Source: Vulgatibacter incomptus (lineage in GTDB: Bacteria > Myxococcota > Myxococcia > Myxococcales > Vulgatibacteraceae). Taken from it: a stretch of 64,000 bases of DNA. The translations under genes were made by a program, and so were the position numbers. A model generated the notes under the pieces. That model had not been told where the DNA came from. It saw only the letters and a list, made by a program, of their open reading frames with translations, and did not search any database. This document shows, piece after piece, positions 30,373 to 38,954 of the stretch (its first letter is position 1; each line of letters opens with the position of its first letter). The DNA is taken from the NCBI RefSeq assembly GCF_001263175.1, contig NZ_CP012332.1, forward strand, positions 1,299,501 through 1,363,500, written 5' to 3'.

Positions 30373-30505
30373 CTTGCGTCGAAGGGCTCGCTTGGCTAGG
30401 TTGCGCGCTGAATTTGAGAGTGCTTTTCAAGATCAACGAACACCATCGGTGAGGGGTTGCGCTGCCGATCGTCGGCCGGGGCGCACCTGGGCTTGGAGAA
30501 TGAGA

Positions 30506-33505
30506 ATGGTTCGCGGAATCAACATGGGTCGGAACGTGGGGGGAACGCTTCGGCTCCTCCTGATCCTGGCCCTGGCGTCCCTCGTGGGGTTGGGCACGGT
30601 GGCCTGCGGGACGGATCGCCATTCGCCGAAGGACGATTGGACGGACCCCGATCCGAACGGCCCAGGTCCAGAGCCCGAGCCCGAGCCGGAGCCGGAACCT
30701 GAGCCGGAACCTGAGCCGGAACCCGAGCCGGAACCCGAGCCGGAACCTGAGCCCGAGCCGGAACCTGAGCCCGAGCCGGAACCTGAGCCCGAGCCAGAAC
30801 CTGAGCCGGAGCCCGTGCTCCCCACCGTCATGCTCGCTCTCCGGTCATCGGAGCCGGTCCTGACGATCCGCCGGGCGATCGTCGACGTGCAGGTCTCTGG
30901 CGAGCCGGCCACCAAGTTGACCTACGTGGTGAACGACGGTCCCGAGATCGACGCCGACGGGCTCGACGCCGATGGCCACGCCGTGATCGACGCGACGCCC
31001 TCGCTCGGCGAGAACCGCCTCGAGGTCCGCGCGTACGGCGCCGGCGCCGCCTACTCCTCCGAGTCCGTCTCGTTCACCTACGGCCAGATCGCCGCCGCAG
31101 GCGCCGCCCACAGCGGCGTGATCCGAGGCGGGCGTGTCTACGTCTGGGGCCGGAACACCAACGGCCAGGCGGGCACCGGCGCCGACGTGAACGCCGACCA
31201 GCTCACGCCCTTCCTCCTCGACACCCCCCGCGACGCGGCCTGGATCTCCTTCGCGCAGAACCAGTCCCTGGTGATCCAGCGCGACGGGTCGGTGTGGACC
31301 TTCGGCCAGAACGCGGACGGGCAGCTCGGTCAGGCAACGCCGGAGGCGCCGACCGTCGCCGCCACCTATCCCACGCCCACCCGGATCCCCTCGATCACCG
31401 ACGCGGTCTCGGCCTCCATGGGCCTCCGCCACGCCCTCGTGCTCCTGGCGGACGGCAGCGTCGTCGGCTTCGGCCTCAACGCCATGGGCCAGCTAGGGGA
31501 CGGCACCACCGCGTCGCGCAACCATCCGGTGGCGGTCCAAGGGCTCTCCGACATCATCAAGCTCGCGGCCGGCTCGGAGACCTCCTTCGCCCTCGACCGG
31601 AGCGGAACCGTCTGGGCCTGGGGGCGAAACCAGTTCGGCAACCTCGGGCAGGGCGTCGTCGACACGCAGCCGCATCCCCTGCCGGCGCCGGTTCCGGGCC
31701 TCGCGGACATCGTCGACATCGCCGCCGGCCGCGATCACCTCCTGGCCGTGCGGGCCGACGGCCTCGTCTTCGGCTGGGGCCTCTGCGCCAGCGCGCAGTG
31801 TGGGAACGGAATCGACGGCTCGGCCCCGGTCCCCACGCCGATCCAGGTCGCGGGCCTCGTGGACGCCACCGCCGTCTGGGCCAGCGGGAACTTCAGCCTG
31901 GCCCGCACCGCCGACGGAGCGCTCTGGGGTTGGGGCCAGAACTTCAACGGACAGCTCGGCCAGGGGGTCGACGGCCCCAACGCGGGGAACGGCGGCGGAC
32001 ATCCCAACACCGTGATCCCCACCCGCGCGGTCGAGGAGCTCGAGGGCGTGATCTCGCTGGCCCCCGGCGCCACCCACGTGATCGCGGTGCGCCGGGACGG
32101 GCGGGTCTTCGCCTGGGGGTGGAGCTTCCGCGGCACCCTGGGTCGAAGCGACGTTCGCAGCCAGTGGAGCTACGCCGCTCCCGTGGAGGTCGACTTCGAG
32201 ACGGCGGCGGTAGAGGAGGGCGAGGCTCGGCCCGGCGGTCTCACCTCCGTGGACAATCGCTCGGCGCAGGCGTTCAACCAGCCCGCCGCCAACCTCGTCT
32301 TCGATCGGCGTACGCCCTTCGTCACCGGCAAGGAGCTCTTTCGGATGCAGTGGCTCCCCCGGGTCGATCCGGGGGAGGGCGGCGCCCGGGGCGGGCTGGG
32401 GCCCCTCTTCCATGAAAACTCCTGCGTGGCCTGTCACCAGGGCAACGGAAGGGGGGCGCCGGCGCGGGAGGGCGAAGCGCCGATCTCCCTCCTGGTCCGG
32501 ATCGGCACGCCCGCCGATCCCGATCCGGTCTACGGCGATCAGCTCCAGCCGAGGGGAATCGACGGCGTGCCCGCCGAGGGCCGGGTCGTCGTCTCCTACC
32601 TGGAGCGGCGCGGCCAATACGCCGACGGCGAGGCCTACACGCTCTACGAGCCCCTCGTCGATGTCGTCGACCTCGCGTACGGCCCGCTCCACCCCGACGC
32701 GAGGCTCTCGGCCCGGATCGCCCAGCCGATGATCGGCCTCGGGCTGCTCGAGGCGGTCCCGGACTCGGCGCTCGACGCCTTGCTCCGGCGGAACCGCGAG
32801 GCGGGGAGGGGGATCGACGGTCGGACCAACCGCGTGTGGAGCGTGCGGCACCAGGCCTTTCGCACGGGCCGCTTCGGATGGAAGGCGAACCAGCCCGACC
32901 TCGAGCAGCAGAACGCCGCGGCATTCCTCGGCGATCTGGGCGTCACGAGCCCGCTCTTTCCGACAGAGCCGTGCACGCCCAGCCAGACCGCGTGTCTGGC
33001 GGCCCGCCACGGCGGCGCGCCCGAGCTCTCGCGGTCGGAGCTCGACGCGATCACCTTTTTCAGTCGCTTCGTCGCCGTGCCCGCCCGGGTCGGCGTCGAC
33101 GATCCCGTGGTCCTGCGCGGGAAGGCGCTCTTTCACCGGATCGAATGCTCCACCTGCCACAATCCGACGTTCACCACGGCAGAGGTAGCCGGCACTCCCG
33201 AGCTCTCCGGCCAGACGATCTGGCCGTACACCGACCTGCTCCTGCACGACATGGGCGACGACCTCGCCGACGGCCGCCCCGACTTCGACGCCACCGGGCG
33301 CGAGTGGCGCACGCCGCCGCTCTGGGGCATCGGCCTCACCGCCACCGTCGGGGGCACGGCGCGCTTCCTCCACGACGGCCGCGCCCGCTCGATCGCCGAG
33401 GCGATCCTCTGGCACGGCGGCGAGGCGGAATCCGCCAGGGAGGCCTTCCGGAGCCTGCCCCGCTCGGACCGGCAGGCGCTCCTGGCCTTCGTGGAAAATC
33501 TGTAG
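30506..33505 (+). CDS. Lipoprotein with RCC1 repeats fused to a di-heme oxidoreductase domain
   Basis: 999 aa from ATG at 30506 (GGAG seven bases upstream; ATG at 30500 is too close). Signal peptide with probable lipid Cys34 (GTVACGTD), then a Glu-Pro repeat linker (about 55-102), an Ig-like segment, and several RCC1 repeats ([60 protein letters not shown]), i.e. a beta-propeller. From about 590 on is a di-heme thiol-oxidoreductase/DUF1111-like domain with heme motifs CVACH (640-644) and CSTCH (881-885). Heme attachment implies periplasmic or surface electron transfer. No RCC1-cytochrome precedent is known to me. Confidence 0.85.
30666..30814 (+). repeat. Hexanucleotide repeat encoding (Glu-Pro)n
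   Basis: About 25 tandem six-base units of the type GAGCCG/GAGCCC/GAACCT, encoding alternating Glu and Pro. It is in frame within the lipoprotein, between the lipid anchor and the folded part, so it acts as a stiff extended spacer. Such repeats can expand or contract. Confidence 0.9.
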
Positions 33506-33580: not shown

Positions 33581-33609
33581 GGCCGGCCCTTTTTCCGAGG
33601 AGAACCAAG

Positions 33610-33996
33610 ATGGCGCGCGACGTGATCCACTCCGACCAGGCACCCAAGGCGATCGGCCCCTATTCGCAGGCGATCCGAGTCGACGCCGGCAAGATGGTCT
33701 TCTGCTCCGGGCAGATCCCCCTCGACCCGGCGACCGGCGAGCTAGTGAAGGGCGACATCGTCGAGCAGACCCAGCGGGTGATGGAGAACCTCCGCGCCGT
33801 CCTGGCCGCCTCTGGCGCGGGCTTCGAGCACGTGGTCCGCTGCAACATCTTCCTCGCGGACCTCAATGATTTCGCCAAGGTGAACGAGACCTACGGCCGC
33901 TACTTCACCGCGAACCCGCCCTCCCGGGCGACCGTTCAGGTGGCGCGCCTCCCCCGCGACTCGCGCGTCGAGATCGACTGCATCGCGGTAATTTGA
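33610..33996 (+). CDS. RidA-family enamine/imine deaminase
   Basis: 128 aa. Full YjgF/RidA domain: APKAIGPYSQAIRV (with the conserved Gly-Pro-Tyr), VFCSGQIPLDPATGEL, VRCNIFLADLNDF, and PPSRATVQVARLPRDSRVEID with the catalytic-site Arg and Glu. Hydrolyses reactive 2-aminoacrylate-type enamines made by PLP enzymes, preventing their damage to other PLP enzymes. ATG at 33610 follows GAGGAG. Standing alone between two large secreted-protein genes. Confidence 0.94.
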   Translation: MARDVIHSDQAPKAIGPYSQAIRVDAGKMVFCSGQIPLDPATGELVKGDIVEQTQRVMENLRAVLAASGAGFEHVVRCNIFLADLNDFAKVNETYGRYFTANPPSRATVQVARLPRDSRVEIDCIAVI

Positions 33997-34055
33997 ATCT
34001 CTAGCGCCTGCGGCCCGTCTCGTGCGGGTCTCCCCGCAACGTCGAGGGCCGTCCC

Positions 34056-36956
34056 TTGAGAAATCTCGCCGCTCTGGCCGCAGGCCTGCTTCTGATCGTC
34101 TCCGGCACCGCCTCGGCGGATGAGACCCTCTATTACGGAGGGTCGATCTTCACCGGAGAGGGCGAGGCCCCTTCTGCACGATGGTTCGTCGTGCGGGACG
34201 GTGCCTTCGCCGCAGTGGGCGACGACCCGGGCGTGCCGGAGGCCTGGGCCCACCTCGAGAGCCAGGTCGATCTAGGGGGCGCCTTCGTGGCGCCCGGCTT
34301 CGTCGACGCCCACATCCACTTCGTGGACGGCGGCCTCGGACTCCTCCACACCGACCTCGCCGGCCTGCACACCGAGGCCGACCTGAGCCGGGCGCTCGCG
34401 GAGGCGGAAGCCCGGGCCCAGGAGCGGGGCTGGATCCTTGCGCGAGGCCTCGTGGAAGGCGGCGCCGGCGCCGGTGAGGCGCTGGGGCACGTCCGCAGGC
34501 TCCTGGCCGACAAGGGCCCCGCCTTCGTGACCCTCGCGGGCGGCCACCACGTCTTCGTCAATCCGGCGGGCCTGGCGCGCCTGGGCATCGACGCCGGTAC
34601 CCCGGATCCCGAGGGCGGCCGAATCGAGCGGGGACCGGACGGCACTCCGACCGGCCTCCTCGTCGACGCCGCGGCCTGGAGCGCCCAGCGCGCGGTGTAC
34701 GAGACCTTCTCCCCGGGCCTGATCGCCCGCGCCATGCTGCGCGCCCAGCGCCGCGCGCTGGCCTTCGGCATCACCGCCATCGGCGACAACACCTTCTTCC
34801 CCGTCCATCTCGCCCTGTACGAGCGCCTCGCGGCGGCGGGCCACCTTCACCTCCGGGTGTCGGCGCGCTCCCTCGGGGCCGAGCCGATGACGCGCTTGCT
34901 GATGTCAGCGGCCGTTGGCCCGCGTGTCCGCTACTTCGGCGAGAAGCACTTCGTCGACGAGTCGCTCTCGCAGCCCGCGTTGGACGCGCCCGCGAAGCCC
35001 CCCGCGATGCCCCCCGCGATGCCTGGTGGCGAGCCGCACCTCACCCAGGCCCAGCTCGAGGAGACCCTCCTCTTCGCCGCCGGCGCGGGGACCGCCTTCC
35101 ACACCCAGGGCCGCGAGGGAGCCGAGCGCCTCGCCGCCGCGCGCCTGGCGGTCGCGTCCCGGCGGCCTCCCGGCAAGGTCGACGTGATCGATCACTGCGG
35201 GAGCTGCGGGGGCGACCTCCCCGCCAAGCTGAAGCAGGCCGGCCTCCGGGTGACGGTGCTGCCCTCCCAGCTCTACGAGCTCCCCGCCTTCGAGAAGCGC
35301 TATGGCGCCGAGGCCACGCGGGACCTCCTGCCGCTGCGCGCGCTCTACGACGCGGGCCTGGAGCCCGCCCTCACCAGCGACTGGCCCCACGGCTACGCCG
35401 CCGATGGCACGCGGGAAGCGCTCGCGCCCCTCTCCCAGGTCGCCGTGGCGGTCTCGGGCCGCACCCCCGCCGGCAACGAGATCCCAGGCGCTGCGTCCCG
35501 CACGATCCCGCTGGCCGGCGCGCTCCGCGGCGTCACCGCGTCGGCCGCAGACACGATCGGCTGGAGTGACCTCGGCCGGATCGGGGAGGGTGCTGCCGCC
35601 GACTTCGTGATCCTCGATCGCTCGCCCTTCGGCATTCCTGCCGCGGAGCTCCACCGGCTGGAGGTCGACGCCACCTTCATCGACGGGATCCCCGTCTTCC
35701 GCCGCACGGACTCTCGTGAGGGCAGGGCGATGCGCGAGGCCATGTCGCGGGCGGAGGCCCTCTCCGCTTCGATCGCGTCGAATCCCGAGGACGTCGTGGA
35801 CGATCCGCTCGGCGACGCAGAGCCGGTCGTCGCGCGGGGATCCGCGGATGGCCCGGGCGCGGCTCGGAACGCGGGCGCGACCCCCGAAGGCGCCCGGTTC
35901 GAAGATGGCCGGGGCGAGATGGACGCGGAGGCGACGCTCGACGCGGAGATCGCCTCGGCGTTCGATTCGAAGCCCCACTCGTGGAATCTGTCGCCGATCA
36001 TCGGCTACGACCCCACCCTCGGCCTGTTCCTCGGAGCCTCCCTCTTCGTTCATTCCTTCGAGGACGAGGGTTGGAATGGGGGCGGCTCGGCCATGTACGC
36101 GGCCAGGCAGGAGTCCGCCCAGGTCTTGGGCAACATCCAGCGGCGCCGTGCCTTCGGCCCGGTCGCCGCCCACCTCGCCTTCCGCTTCGAGACGCTCCAT
36201 ACGAGCTTCTTCGGGCTTGGAAGCGACACCTCCGTCGACGACTCCGTCGAGACCCGGCCGACCTGGGTCGAGCTCCGTCCCGGCCTGAGGCTCCCGCTGG
36301 GGCGGCGCTGGGAGGCCGGCGTCTACGCTTCCTACGCCTGGCTGCGCGAGCGTTCCGCCGATCGGATCATCGAGCTCCAGGGGCAGAACGCCGGCGTGGT
36401 GAACGGGAACTACTTCGGCCCGCGTTTCGAGCTCGTCTGGGACGGCCGCGACAATCCCTTGTCCGCGCGCAAGGGCAGCTTGTTCTCGGCGTGGACCAAC
36501 ACCTGGCTCGTCCAGGGAGGCCAGGACGCGCCGCGTCTGACGATGGGTGCAACGATCGCTCACTTCGTTCCGCTGCGGGCCCCGGACTGGATCCTCGCCC
36601 TCCGCCTCGAGGGAGGCACCAGCGTCGGCGACCGCGGCTATCTCACCGACTTCACCCTCGGCGGCCAGGATCGGCTCCGCGGCTACTCGATCAGCCGCTT
36701 CCGAGGCGACCACGTCGTCGATGGCACCGCCGAGCTCCGCTTCCCGATCTGGCGCTTGATCTCCGGAGCCGCCTTCGCCGACGCCGGCCGCGTTTGGGCA
36801 AAGGGCGTCCCCGAGCCCGATCGCCCGCTCGTTATCTCCGGGGGCGGCGGCCTTCGCTTTGGCCTTCCTCCTGAGGGCCTGGCGAGGCTGCGCTTGGACG
36901 CCGGCTTCGGCCGCGACGAGTGGGGCATCTTCTTCACCTTCGGCGAAGCCTTCTGA
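34056..36956 (+). CDS. Exported amidohydrolase fused to an Omp85/BamA-like beta-barrel
   Basis: 966 aa in one uninterrupted frame, TTG start. Signal peptide 1-20 (SGTASAD). Residues about 24-560 form a YtcJ-like amidohydrolase: metal site DAHIHF (H86, H88), GGHHVFV, an AFHTQG His, VIDHCGSCGG, and the catalytic Asp in LTSDWPHG. A 75-residue acidic/Gly/Ala linker follows. Residues about 641-966 are an Omp85-type barrel: opening strand IIGYDPTLGLFLGASLF, the L6 signature LGGQDRLRGYSISRF, and a C-terminal beta-signal ending FFTFGEAF. The expected layout is a passenger enzyme tethered to, or presented by, its own outer-membrane barrel. Substrate unknown. Confidence 0.85.
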   Translation: MRNLAALAAGLLLIVSGTASADETLYYGGSIFTGEGEAPSARWFVVRDGAFAAVGDDPGVPEAWAHLESQVDLGGAFVAPGFVDAHIHFVDGGLGLLHTDLAGLHTEADLSRALAEAEARAQERGWILARGLVEGGAGAGEALGHVRRLLADKGPAFVTLAGGHHVFVNPAGLARLGIDAGTPDPEGGRIERGPDGTPTGLLVDAAAWSAQRAVYETFSPGLIARAMLRAQRRALAFGITAIGDNTFFPVHLALYERLAAAGHLHLRVSARSLGAEPMTRLLMSAAVGPRVRYFGEKHFVDESLSQPALDAPAKPPAMPPAMPGGEPHLTQAQLEETLLFAAGAGTAFHTQGREGAERLAAARLAVASRRPPGKVDVIDHCGSCGGDLPAKLKQAGLRVTVLPSQLYELPAFEKRYGAEATRDLLPLRALYDAGLEPALTSDWPHGYAADGTREALAPLSQVAVAVSGRTPAGNEIPGAASRTIPLAGALRGVTASAADTIGWSDLGRIGEGAAADFVILDRSPFGIPAAELHRLEVDATFIDGIPVFRRTDSREGRAMREAMSRAEALSASIASNPEDVVDDPLGDAEPVVARGSADGPGAARNAGATPEGARFEDGRGEMDAEATLDAEIASAFDSKPHSWNLSPIIGYDPTLGLFLGASLFVHSFEDEGWNGGGSAMYAARQESAQVLGNIQRRRAFGPVAAHLAFRFETLHTSFFGLGSDTSVDDSVETRPTWVELRPGLRLPLGRRWEAGVYASYAWLRERSADRIIELQGQNAGVVNGNYFGPRFELVWDGRDNPLSARKGSLFSAWTNTWLVQGGQDAPRLTMGATIAHFVPLRAPDWILALRLEGGTSVGDRGYLTDFTLGGQDRLRGYSISRFRGDHVVDGTAELRFPIWRLISGAAFADAGRVWAKGVPEPDRPLVISGGGGLRFGLPPEGLARLRLDAGFGRDEWGIFFTFGEAF

Positions 36957-37106: not shown

Positions 37107-38954
37107 GTGCGCCCAGCATGGGCGCTGTCTTGTCGGTGTAAGTCCGACCGAGAGGAGGTCATCCCGATCGAAGCGAACCGCAACTGCGGGAGGGTGACCG
37201 ACCGTGGGGAGGAAGCGGGGAGCGAAACCGCGGGCCGATTTACAAGAACTGGATCCGAGGCGTCGCCGAGCGGGACGAGCGGGCACGAGACCGCGAAGTT
37301 CCGATGACCAAGTCTCAGGCGGCGTAAATCCAGCGGTCGTGCGGTGAAGGACAGCGTTCTTACCTGGGGAGATCTCGCCTCACGCCTGAAAGGGCGACGC
37401 CGCGAGGCGGAGCGAGAAGTCAGCAGAGGCCGTAGTAGCGCCTTCGCACAAGGCGTGAAGGGCCGAACGGTAGGAAGGGTGAAACGCCCGTGAGTCTTGA
37501 AGACGCAACGCCTCAGATGTCCAGGCAACTGGAGCTCCCGCTGGAGGATAGGGGTGAAGCCCCGAGAGCCGAGCGGAGCGAGGAAGCGTCGTCGGCGGCG
37601 AACGGAAACGAGCGCCCAGGAGCGAGCGACCTGATGGCGAAGGTGCTGGAGCGCCAGAACCTTCAGGCCGCGCTGAAGCGAGTCAGGAACAACAAGGGCA
37701 GCCCAGGCATCGACGGGATGACGGTGGACGAGCTGCCGGATTACCTGCGGGCGAACTGGCTCCGGCTCCGCGAGGAGATCCTCTCGGGCCGATACCAGCC
37801 GCAGCCGGTACGACGGCACGCGATCCCAAAGAGCGGCGGTGGGGAGCGACAATTAGGCATCCCCACGGTTCTCGACCGATTCATCCAGCAAGCGCTATTG
37901 CAGGTCTTGCAGCCCCTGTTCGACCCGACCTTCTCGGAGCACAGCCACGGCTTCCGGCCCAGGCGGAGCGCGCACAACGCGGTGCGTGAAGCCCAGGGTT
38001 ACGTGCAGCAAGGGAAGCGGTGGGTCGTGGACGTCGATCTGGAGAGCTTTTTCGATCGAGTGAATCACGACGTGCTGATGGGGCGGTTGGCGAGACGGAT
38101 CGGCGACAAGTCGGTGTTGCGGCTCATCCGCCGCTACCTGAACGCCGGCATCATGGCGAATGGGGTGGTGGTGGAGCGGTACGAAGGGACTCCGCAGGGA
38201 GGCCCCCTCTCACCGCTACTTGCGAACGTGCTTCTCGACGAGGTCGACAAGGACCTGGAGTCCCGCGGCCTCTCTTTCGTGCGCTACGCCGACGACTGCA
38301 ACGTCTACGTGCGGTCGCGGCGAGCGGGCGAACGGGTGATGGAGACGCTTCGGCGGCTCTACTCGGGACTCCGGCTCCGCATCAACGAGACGAAGAGCGC
38401 TGTGGCCAGGGTGTGGGATCGAAAGTTCCTCGGGTTCACCTTCTGGGTGGCCAAGGGAAAGGAGGTCCGACCCAAGGTCGCACGCAAGGCCCTCGACGCG
38501 ATGAAGGATCGGGTTCGGCAGATCACCAGCCGGTCCGGAGGACGGAGCCTCCCGCAGATCGCGGCGGAGCTCCGGGCGTATCTGGTGGGATGGAAGGGAT
38601 ACTTCCGCCTCGCCGTCACGCCCGGCGTCTTCCGGGATCTCGACGAGTGGATCCGACACCGCCTACGAGCCGTACAACTCCGTCAGTGGAAACGGGGACA
38701 GACCATCTATCGGGAGCTGCGCGCGCGGGGCATGTCCGAGCACGCAGCGGCCCGGGTGGCCGCCAACGGACGCCGCTGGTGGAGGAACTCGGCCATGGCG
38801 ATCCACATCGCGCTTCCCAACTCGCACTTCGACGAACTTGGAGTCCCAAGGCTCGCCGCGTAACCTCAACCTACCGAACCGCCGGATGCGGACCCGCTTG
38901 TCCGGTGGTGTGGGAGGGGATCGACGGGGCAAAGCCCGTCGCCCCTATCCCGAT
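37107..38954 (+). mobile_element. Group IIC intron, complete
   Basis: 1848 bases. The 5' end GTGCGCCCAGC is the typical group II start (GUGYG) and the 3' end CCCGAT gives the expected AY. The ends are fixed by comparison with the uninvaded tandem repeat: CGTCGT then TGGCG occurs uninterrupted at 37037-37047. The 383 bases before the ORF (37107-37489) hold ribozyme domains I-III and no other gene. Domain V lies at about 38877-38917 (CCGCCGGATGCGGACCCGC, then GTCCGGTGG). Domain VI follows at about 38918-38950 with stem CGACGGG/CCCGTCG. Insertion just after an intrinsic terminator stem is typical of class C. Confidence 0.93.
37490..38863 (+). CDS. ltrA: Group II intron reverse transcriptase/maturase
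   Basis: 457 aa, GTG start after AGGAAGGG. Reverse-transcriptase blocks: NNKGSPGIDGMTVDEL, RPLG-type segment RQLGIPTVLDRFIQQALL, SHGFRPRRSAHNAV, YEGTPQGGPLSPLLAN, and the catalytic YADD (266-269). A maturase X domain (GWKGYFRLA, LDEWIRHRLRAVQLRQWKR) completes it. No HNH endonuclease motif at the C-terminus, as usual for class C introns. Needed for splicing and for retrohoming of the surrounding intron. The frame is intact, so the element may be active. Confidence 0.96.
   Translation: MSLEDATPQMSRQLELPLEDRGEAPRAERSEEASSAANGNERPGASDLMAKVLERQNLQAALKRVRNNKGSPGIDGMTVDELPDYLRANWLRLREEILSGRYQPQPVRRHAIPKSGGGERQLGIPTVLDRFIQQALLQVLQPLFDPTFSEHSHGFRPRRSAHNAVREAQGYVQQGKRWVVDVDLESFFDRVNHDVLMGRLARRIGDKSVLRLIRRYLNAGIMANGVVVERYEGTPQGGPLSPLLANVLLDEVDKDLESRGLSFVRYADDCNVYVRSRRAGERVMETLRRLYSGLRLRINETKSAVARVWDRKFLGFTFWVAKGKEVRPKVARKALDAMKDRVRQITSRSGGRSLPQIAAELRAYLVGWKGYFRLAVTPGVFRDLDEWIRHRLRAVQLRQWKRGQTIYRELRARGMSEHAAARVAANGRRWWRNSAMAIHIALPNSHFDELGVPRLAA

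Follow-up and report, generated by a model that had tools for sequence, protein, structure and literature searches.

Predicted outer-membrane anchoring of a YtcJ-type amidohydrolase by a POTRA-less Omp85 barrel in Vulgatibacter incomptus

Fusion gene and its surroundings

The fusion gene lies in a window (the whole stretch of DNA that was analysed) of 64,000 nucleotides of the Vulgatibacter incomptus genome. It runs from a TTG start at 34056 to a stop codon at 36954-36956 and encodes 966 amino acids in a single frame without internal stop. The order of the parts in the protein is a Sec signal peptide, an Amidohydro_3 domain, a linker, an Omp85 barrel and a terminal phenylalanine (Table 1). The ridA-like gene placed upstream is a possible operon partner of the fusion gene and, by adjacency alone, is weakly compatible with the handling of small reactive or cyclic nitrogen compounds. 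Further upstream, at 30374-33505 of the window, the protein of a 1043-aa frame combines RCC1 repeats with a Pro-Glu repeat and with a di-haem oxidoreductase (DHOR) domain. The fusion gene is followed by a terminator-like hairpin (37109-37125) and, just past it, a group II intron (37188-38863) with Rfam D1-D4 matches at 37188-37358 and 37395-37463 and a reverse transcriptase/maturase at 37490-38863.

Table 1. Coordinates in the window of the fusion gene, its parts and the upstream gene
Feature	Position	Strand	Basis or remark
ridA-like gene (PF01042, Ribonuc_L-PSP)	33607..33996	+	Pfam E 3.8e-43; ends 59 bp upstream of the fusion gene
GAGGG, Shine-Dalgarno-like	34044..34048	+	sequence; 7 nt upstream of TTG
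Fusion gene, 966 codons and stop	34056..36956	+	ORF and sequence reading
Signal peptide, residues 1-21, MRNLAALAAGLLLIVSGTASA, predicted cut before D22, no lipobox	34056..34118	+	sequence, hydropathy
YtcJ-type amidohydrolase, residues 22-551	34119..35708	+	PF07969, model, match to 3igh
Metal ligands H86 and H88 (DAHIHF, motif at 84)	34311..34319	+	invariant in 57/57 relatives
K297, expected carboxylated bridging lysine	34944..34946	+	K in 53/57 relatives
Metal ligand H349	35100..35102	+	H in 55/57 relatives
Metal ligand H380 (DHCGSCGG)	35193..35195	+	invariant in 57/57 relatives
Catalytic Asp D442 (TSDWPHG)	35379..35381	+	invariant in 57/57 relatives
Linker, residues 552-640 (~90)	35709..35975	+	sequence, model
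Predicted Omp85 barrel, residues 641-966, POTRA-less ("noNterm") type, C-terminal Phe F966	35976..36953	+	PF01103, alignment
Omp85 L6 motif LRGY, residues 874-877 (R875)	36675..36686	+	R and G invariant in alignment

The original prediction, a reading of the same DNA, described a YtcJ-type amidohydrolase that shares its frame with an Omp85 barrel. This is borne out by the intact frame and by the two Pfam families that it had proposed for a domain search, both of which are matched: PF07969 (Amidohydro_3) at residues 71-548, covering profile positions 3-472 of 472 with E 4.8e-53, and PF01103 at residues 789-964 with E 2e-17 and 64.2 bits, against a gathering score of 24. The motifs that it listed (DAHIHF, DHCGSCGG, TSDWPHG, LRGY and the C-terminal Phe) are all present.

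In all relatives examined the two domains are separate genes, which is what a sequencing or assembly error that merged two adjacent genes would lead one to expect. The source genome, however, is a single contig of 4.35 Mb, rated 100% complete, and the location of the fusion gene on this sole contig rules out a contig-joining artefact. The coding composition is continuous across the joint: GC at third codon positions is 0.80-0.93 through the linker, unbroken and in the frame of the fusion gene, and the linker is thus coding in that frame. A misjoined barrel gene would also keep its signal peptide. Own signals occur in 6/6 of the free-standing barrel relatives checked (hydropathy 2.4-3.1), and the N-terminal signal of the fusion has a mean hydropathy of 2.9 over 12 residues, whereas no signal-peptide-like segment is found between the domains in any of the 3 frames, where the best 12-residue mean is 0.58. 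Consequently, the barrel can reach the envelope only as part of the fusion. A hidden second gene start ahead of the barrel was considered and ruled out, the signal peptide being absent from all frames there. The original prediction had allowed for an assembly fusion of two genes that are separate in close homologues; the separation in relatives holds, but the fusion itself is intact and its barrel lacks a signal peptide of its own. Of the explanations weighed here, an error merging two intact genes is the least probable, and very unlikely.

Amidohydrolase domain

The enzyme domain aligns with 57 full-length relatives at ~30% identity, nearly all of them myxobacterial. The frames of these relatives end at most 12 residues past the end of the match in 52/57 cases, and the longest tail has 48 residues; since they stop near the start of the linker, they are separate, free-standing proteins. 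The fusion departs from this pattern, with 415 further residues after the amidohydrolase, and is the only strong PF07969 protein of the source genome.

All 6 of the expected metal-site residues (H86, H88, K297, H349, H380 and D442) are kept in the alignment. Around the pocket, the fusion differs at positions where at least 95% of the relatives share one residue (R160L, D353R, R375V, G302E and G440T). The complete metal site together with the changed pocket surroundings suggests that the metal centre is active and that the substrate differs from that of the relatives.

In the AlphaFold2 model, calculated with nine sequences, residues 22-551 are mostly at pLDDT 70-94, except for 269-328 and a few short loops. 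The nearest solved fold to the enzyme model is 3igh (Z 31.1, rmsd 3.3, 453 residues), followed by 3icj (Z 30.2); both are archaeal metal-dependent hydrolases deposited as uncharacterized. Fold comparison of the full-length model, in which the barrel part is modelled at low pLDDT, returned amidohydrolase-type folds only.

The linker that follows begins with a helix (554-575) and continues as an acidic stretch rich in Ala, Gly and Pro, a low-confidence coil in the model. The original prediction saw no obvious POTRA, and indeed no POTRA family is matched by the fusion protein at E<=1 in Pfam.

Omp85 barrel

The best matches of the barrel are free-standing proteins of 370-430 aa from Acidobacteriota and Myxococcota. 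When it is compared by phmmer with 28 Omp85 barrels of differing architecture, the top ten are all POTRA-less, free-standing and from Acidobacteriota. An alignment across residues 641-966 of 20 sequences (the fusion and 19 free-standing proteins of ~370-430 aa) has 18 invariant columns, all 18 kept in the fusion, among them the R and G of LRGY and a D-x-R motif in a middle strand. The profile of this alignment matches 9ccg (2.7e-19), BamA (3e-6) and TamA (3.6e-5) in the PDB, and the barrel also matches NF047779 at E 5e-12, under the cut-off of that family. No match to the type Va barrel PF03797 is found in the fusion protein at E<=1.

The beta-alternation of hydropathy in the barrel columns is 0.930, versus 0.650 +/- 0.052 in shuffled columns, and ~16 strands can be drawn by eye in the sequence. 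AlphaFold2 gives a mean pLDDT of 31 for the barrel alone from a single sequence, and 21-32 over most of the barrel in the full-length model, where this part is likewise from a single sequence. A closed 16-stranded barrel after residue 640 is predicted by homology.

The other Omp85 proteins of the source genome are BamA and three more of POTRA type, plus the propeller type; no free-standing noNterm barrel was found in this genome beside the fusion. The propeller type is represented by two frames, L133:1551-4529 (-) of 993 aa and L134:1066-4755 (+) of 1230 aa, which combine a TolB-propeller (PD40) with Omp85. Both carry a HExxH region (HEYVH, HELTH) ahead of the propeller, where Pfam has no peptidase match, and from sequence the arrangement looks like a metallopeptidase-propeller-barrel architecture.

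The retention of every invariant alignment position, LRGY included, would suit a barrel that works as a BamA- or TamA-like assembly or translocation factor, with the amidohydrolase as a structural or regulatory substitute for POTRA and not mainly an enzyme. Heinz and Lithgow see a possible role for noNterm barrels in the assembly of membrane proteins (PMC4104836). On the other hand, the metal site is complete, which would not be required of a purely structural domain, and the POTRA-type proteins just listed, BamA among them, are already in the genome. Such a role is improbable.

Distribution of the fusion

The amidohydrolase and the Omp85 barrel are each common as separate genes in the genomes searched. 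The survey of genomes for the same fusion that the original prediction had proposed yielded no second amidohydrolase-Omp85 fusion in ~1,030 genomes of four phyla, among the matches listed for the top candidates per genome, the only ones scored in these large runs; diverged barrels could escape. The barrel query covered 195 Myxococcota, 396 Acidobacteriota and 398 Pseudomonadota genomes, with 40 more from a fourth phylum, and the full-length query 147 genomes of the source class and 247 Acidobacteriota. The fusion is absent from the other genome of the source's family (n=1). Among 72,556 plasmids searched by tblastn, 40 records have matches and none spans 80% of the query. Short peptide patterns, which find close relatives only, hit nine loci in 84,980 GTDB species genomes, none of them continuing past the amidohydrolase.

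The N-terminal domains of the characterised long barrel frames from other genomes are POTRA, TamB, PD40 or unassigned, or the frame is a read-through; no amidohydrolase stands ahead of the barrel in these frames (Pfam on a sample). This comparison excluded G043 (967 and 961 aa) and G025 (888 aa), whose barrels are too weak for phmmer. In the Acidobacteriota genome G413, a frame of 2,239 aa (L161:348-7064, +) joins TamB (PF04357), four POTRA repeats and an Omp85 barrel by Pfam. It is a natural TamB-TamA-type fusion in one polypeptide, of a kind that is apparently common in Acidobacteriota: L162:373-7041 (-) and many Acidobacteriota frames of 2,000-2,450 aa look similar, Pfam having been run on L161 only. 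Two further frames, L163:452-3115 (+) of 888 aa and L165:375-2918 (-) of 848 aa, carry Omp85 barrels behind N-terminal regions without Pfam match; barrels of this kind occur in Acidobacteriota and, judged solely on frame length, in Myxococcota (the 888-aa frame of G025). L163 is the neighbour of the fusion barrel in the tree, at a weakly supported position (0.42).

Comparison with known enzyme-Omp85 systems

Heinz and Lithgow (2014) distinguish ten Omp85/TpsB subfamilies, including patatin, Metallo (PF00149), WD40 and noNterm (PMC4104836). The word "amidohydrolase" is absent from the main text of that work (PMC4104836). The original prediction knew of no amidohydrolase passenger of this kind, and the literature search agrees: no published description of an amidohydrolase-Omp85 fusion was found, and in the single paper whose full text contains all of amidohydrolase, Omp85 and outer membrane, these appear as unrelated list entries.

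The patatin-Omp85 proteins of type Vd (PlpD of Pseudomonas aeruginosa, FplA) resemble the fusion in having a signal peptide, an N-terminal hydrolase and a C-terminal Omp85 barrel. The enzyme of the fusion, however, is an amidohydrolase, and patatin is absent from its Pfam matches at E<=1. Likewise, the PlpD enzyme is POTRA-bound, whereas the fusion has a long linker and no detected POTRA. By its sequence the protein would thus fall outside type Vd, having neither patatin nor POTRA, although the order of the parts is the same. In layout, too, the barrel differs from that of PlpD and is more like the POTRA-less noNterm Omp85 proteins. The latter are similar in barrel sequence but carry a signal peptide of their own and lack an enzyme at the N-terminus, whereas the fusion has the amidohydrolase in front. 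Heinz and Lithgow relate noNterm to another enzyme-Omp85 group, the PF00149 "Metallo" proteins (PMC4104836).

The Metallo-Omp85 (PF00149) and WD40-Omp85 (TolB-like propeller) proteins place, as the fusion does, a non-POTRA N-terminal domain before the barrel. In these groups that domain is either a propeller or a metallohydrolase of calcineurin type; in the fusion it is Amidohydro_3, and PF00149 is not among the fusion's matches at E<=1. The secreted YtcJ-type amidohydrolases (Amidohydro_3, COG1574-like) are ~30% identical to the enzyme of the fusion over their full length and share its metal ligands, but they end near residue 551, and the pocket surroundings conserved among them are altered in the fusion. 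The fusion is a new domain combination inside the known enzyme-Omp85 architecture.

Membrane topology and proposed function

The preferred reading, held with a probability of about 0.6, is that the fusion is an outer-membrane-anchored periplasmic amidohydrolase, held by a tether on the inner side of that membrane. The chain would be exported by Sec via the N-terminal signal peptide. BAM would recognise the beta-signal with the C-terminal Phe and, by homology, insert the last 326 residues, which would form an Omp85 barrel of 16 strands. With an even number of strands, such a barrel has its two ends on the periplasmic side, and by default the enzyme would sit at the outer membrane on the side of the periplasm. 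There the amidohydrolase would fold into two domains, as a TIM-barrel enzyme whose metal site is binuclear, and the flexible acidic linker would hold it to the inner face. As for its origin, a secreted YtcJ-type enzyme may have been placed before a free-standing POTRA-less Omp85 barrel whose signal peptide was lost.

Several observations speak for the anchor. Free-standing barrels equipped with their own signal peptides align with the whole length of the fusion barrel, and in the two proteins of 993 and 1230 aa from the source genome TolB-like propellers precede an Omp85 barrel. Heinz and Lithgow liken the propellers of such proteins to periplasmic TolB and BamB (PMC4104836). PlpD was long regarded as a surface-display system, and when it was re-examined in 2024 (Hanson et al.) its enzyme domain proved to be periplasmic (PMC11116518). 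PlpD is the sole biochemically tested enzyme-Omp85 protein, and by analogy its periplasmic enzyme would support the anchor. Counting against the anchor, the ~90-residue linker is long enough to thread through the barrel, and the fusion, unlike PlpD, is without POTRA to retain the enzyme in the periplasm.

The long linker and the missing POTRA leave room for surface display, in which the barrel, or an intermediate with the BAM barrel, hands the amidohydrolase to the cell surface as a type-V-like autotransporter with a new enzyme. The signal peptide, the N-terminal passenger, the C-terminal barrel and a flexible linker of barrel-crossing length would fit this, as would an extracellular hydrolase in a myxobacterium-like organism. 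The original prediction had advanced surface display by analogy with type Vd. In PlpD, the model for the idea, the enzyme stays in the periplasm (PMC11116518). In addition, export in the unfolded state suits a globular, metal-binding TIM barrel of ~530 residues poorly, and both termini are normally periplasmic in Omp85 barrels of such type. On the predicted 16-strand topology and the periplasmic enzyme domain of PlpD, the anchored periplasmic hydrolase is preferred and surface display is unlikely. That a POTRA-less Omp85 barrel exports a covalently attached globular metalloenzyme, by an autotransport route outside the type V classes described, is decidedly unlikely.

The anchored enzyme may hydrolyse a small compound of amide, formamide or cyclic-amide type that passes in or out through the outer membrane. 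The barrel itself could be a pore specific for the substrate and supply the tethered enzyme through it, so that one polypeptide serves nutrient scavenging. The coupling of an enzyme to a membrane entry point would account for the fusion, and an outer-membrane protein-enzyme fusion with a proposed transport role is recorded in TCDB (SpmT, PMC4827864). No sequence feature indicates an open lumen, however. Most Omp85 barrels studied to date are not nutrient pores, and a feeding pore is quite improbable.

The amidohydrolase of the fusion is the third hydrolase type on Omp85 barrels, after patatin and the calcineurin-like phosphoesterase, and its barrel appears to be POTRA-less. A new enzyme on such a barrel therefore offers a clean test of Omp85 as an anchor of periplasmic enzymes versus a carrier of enzymes, a question reopened by the 2024 result on PlpD.
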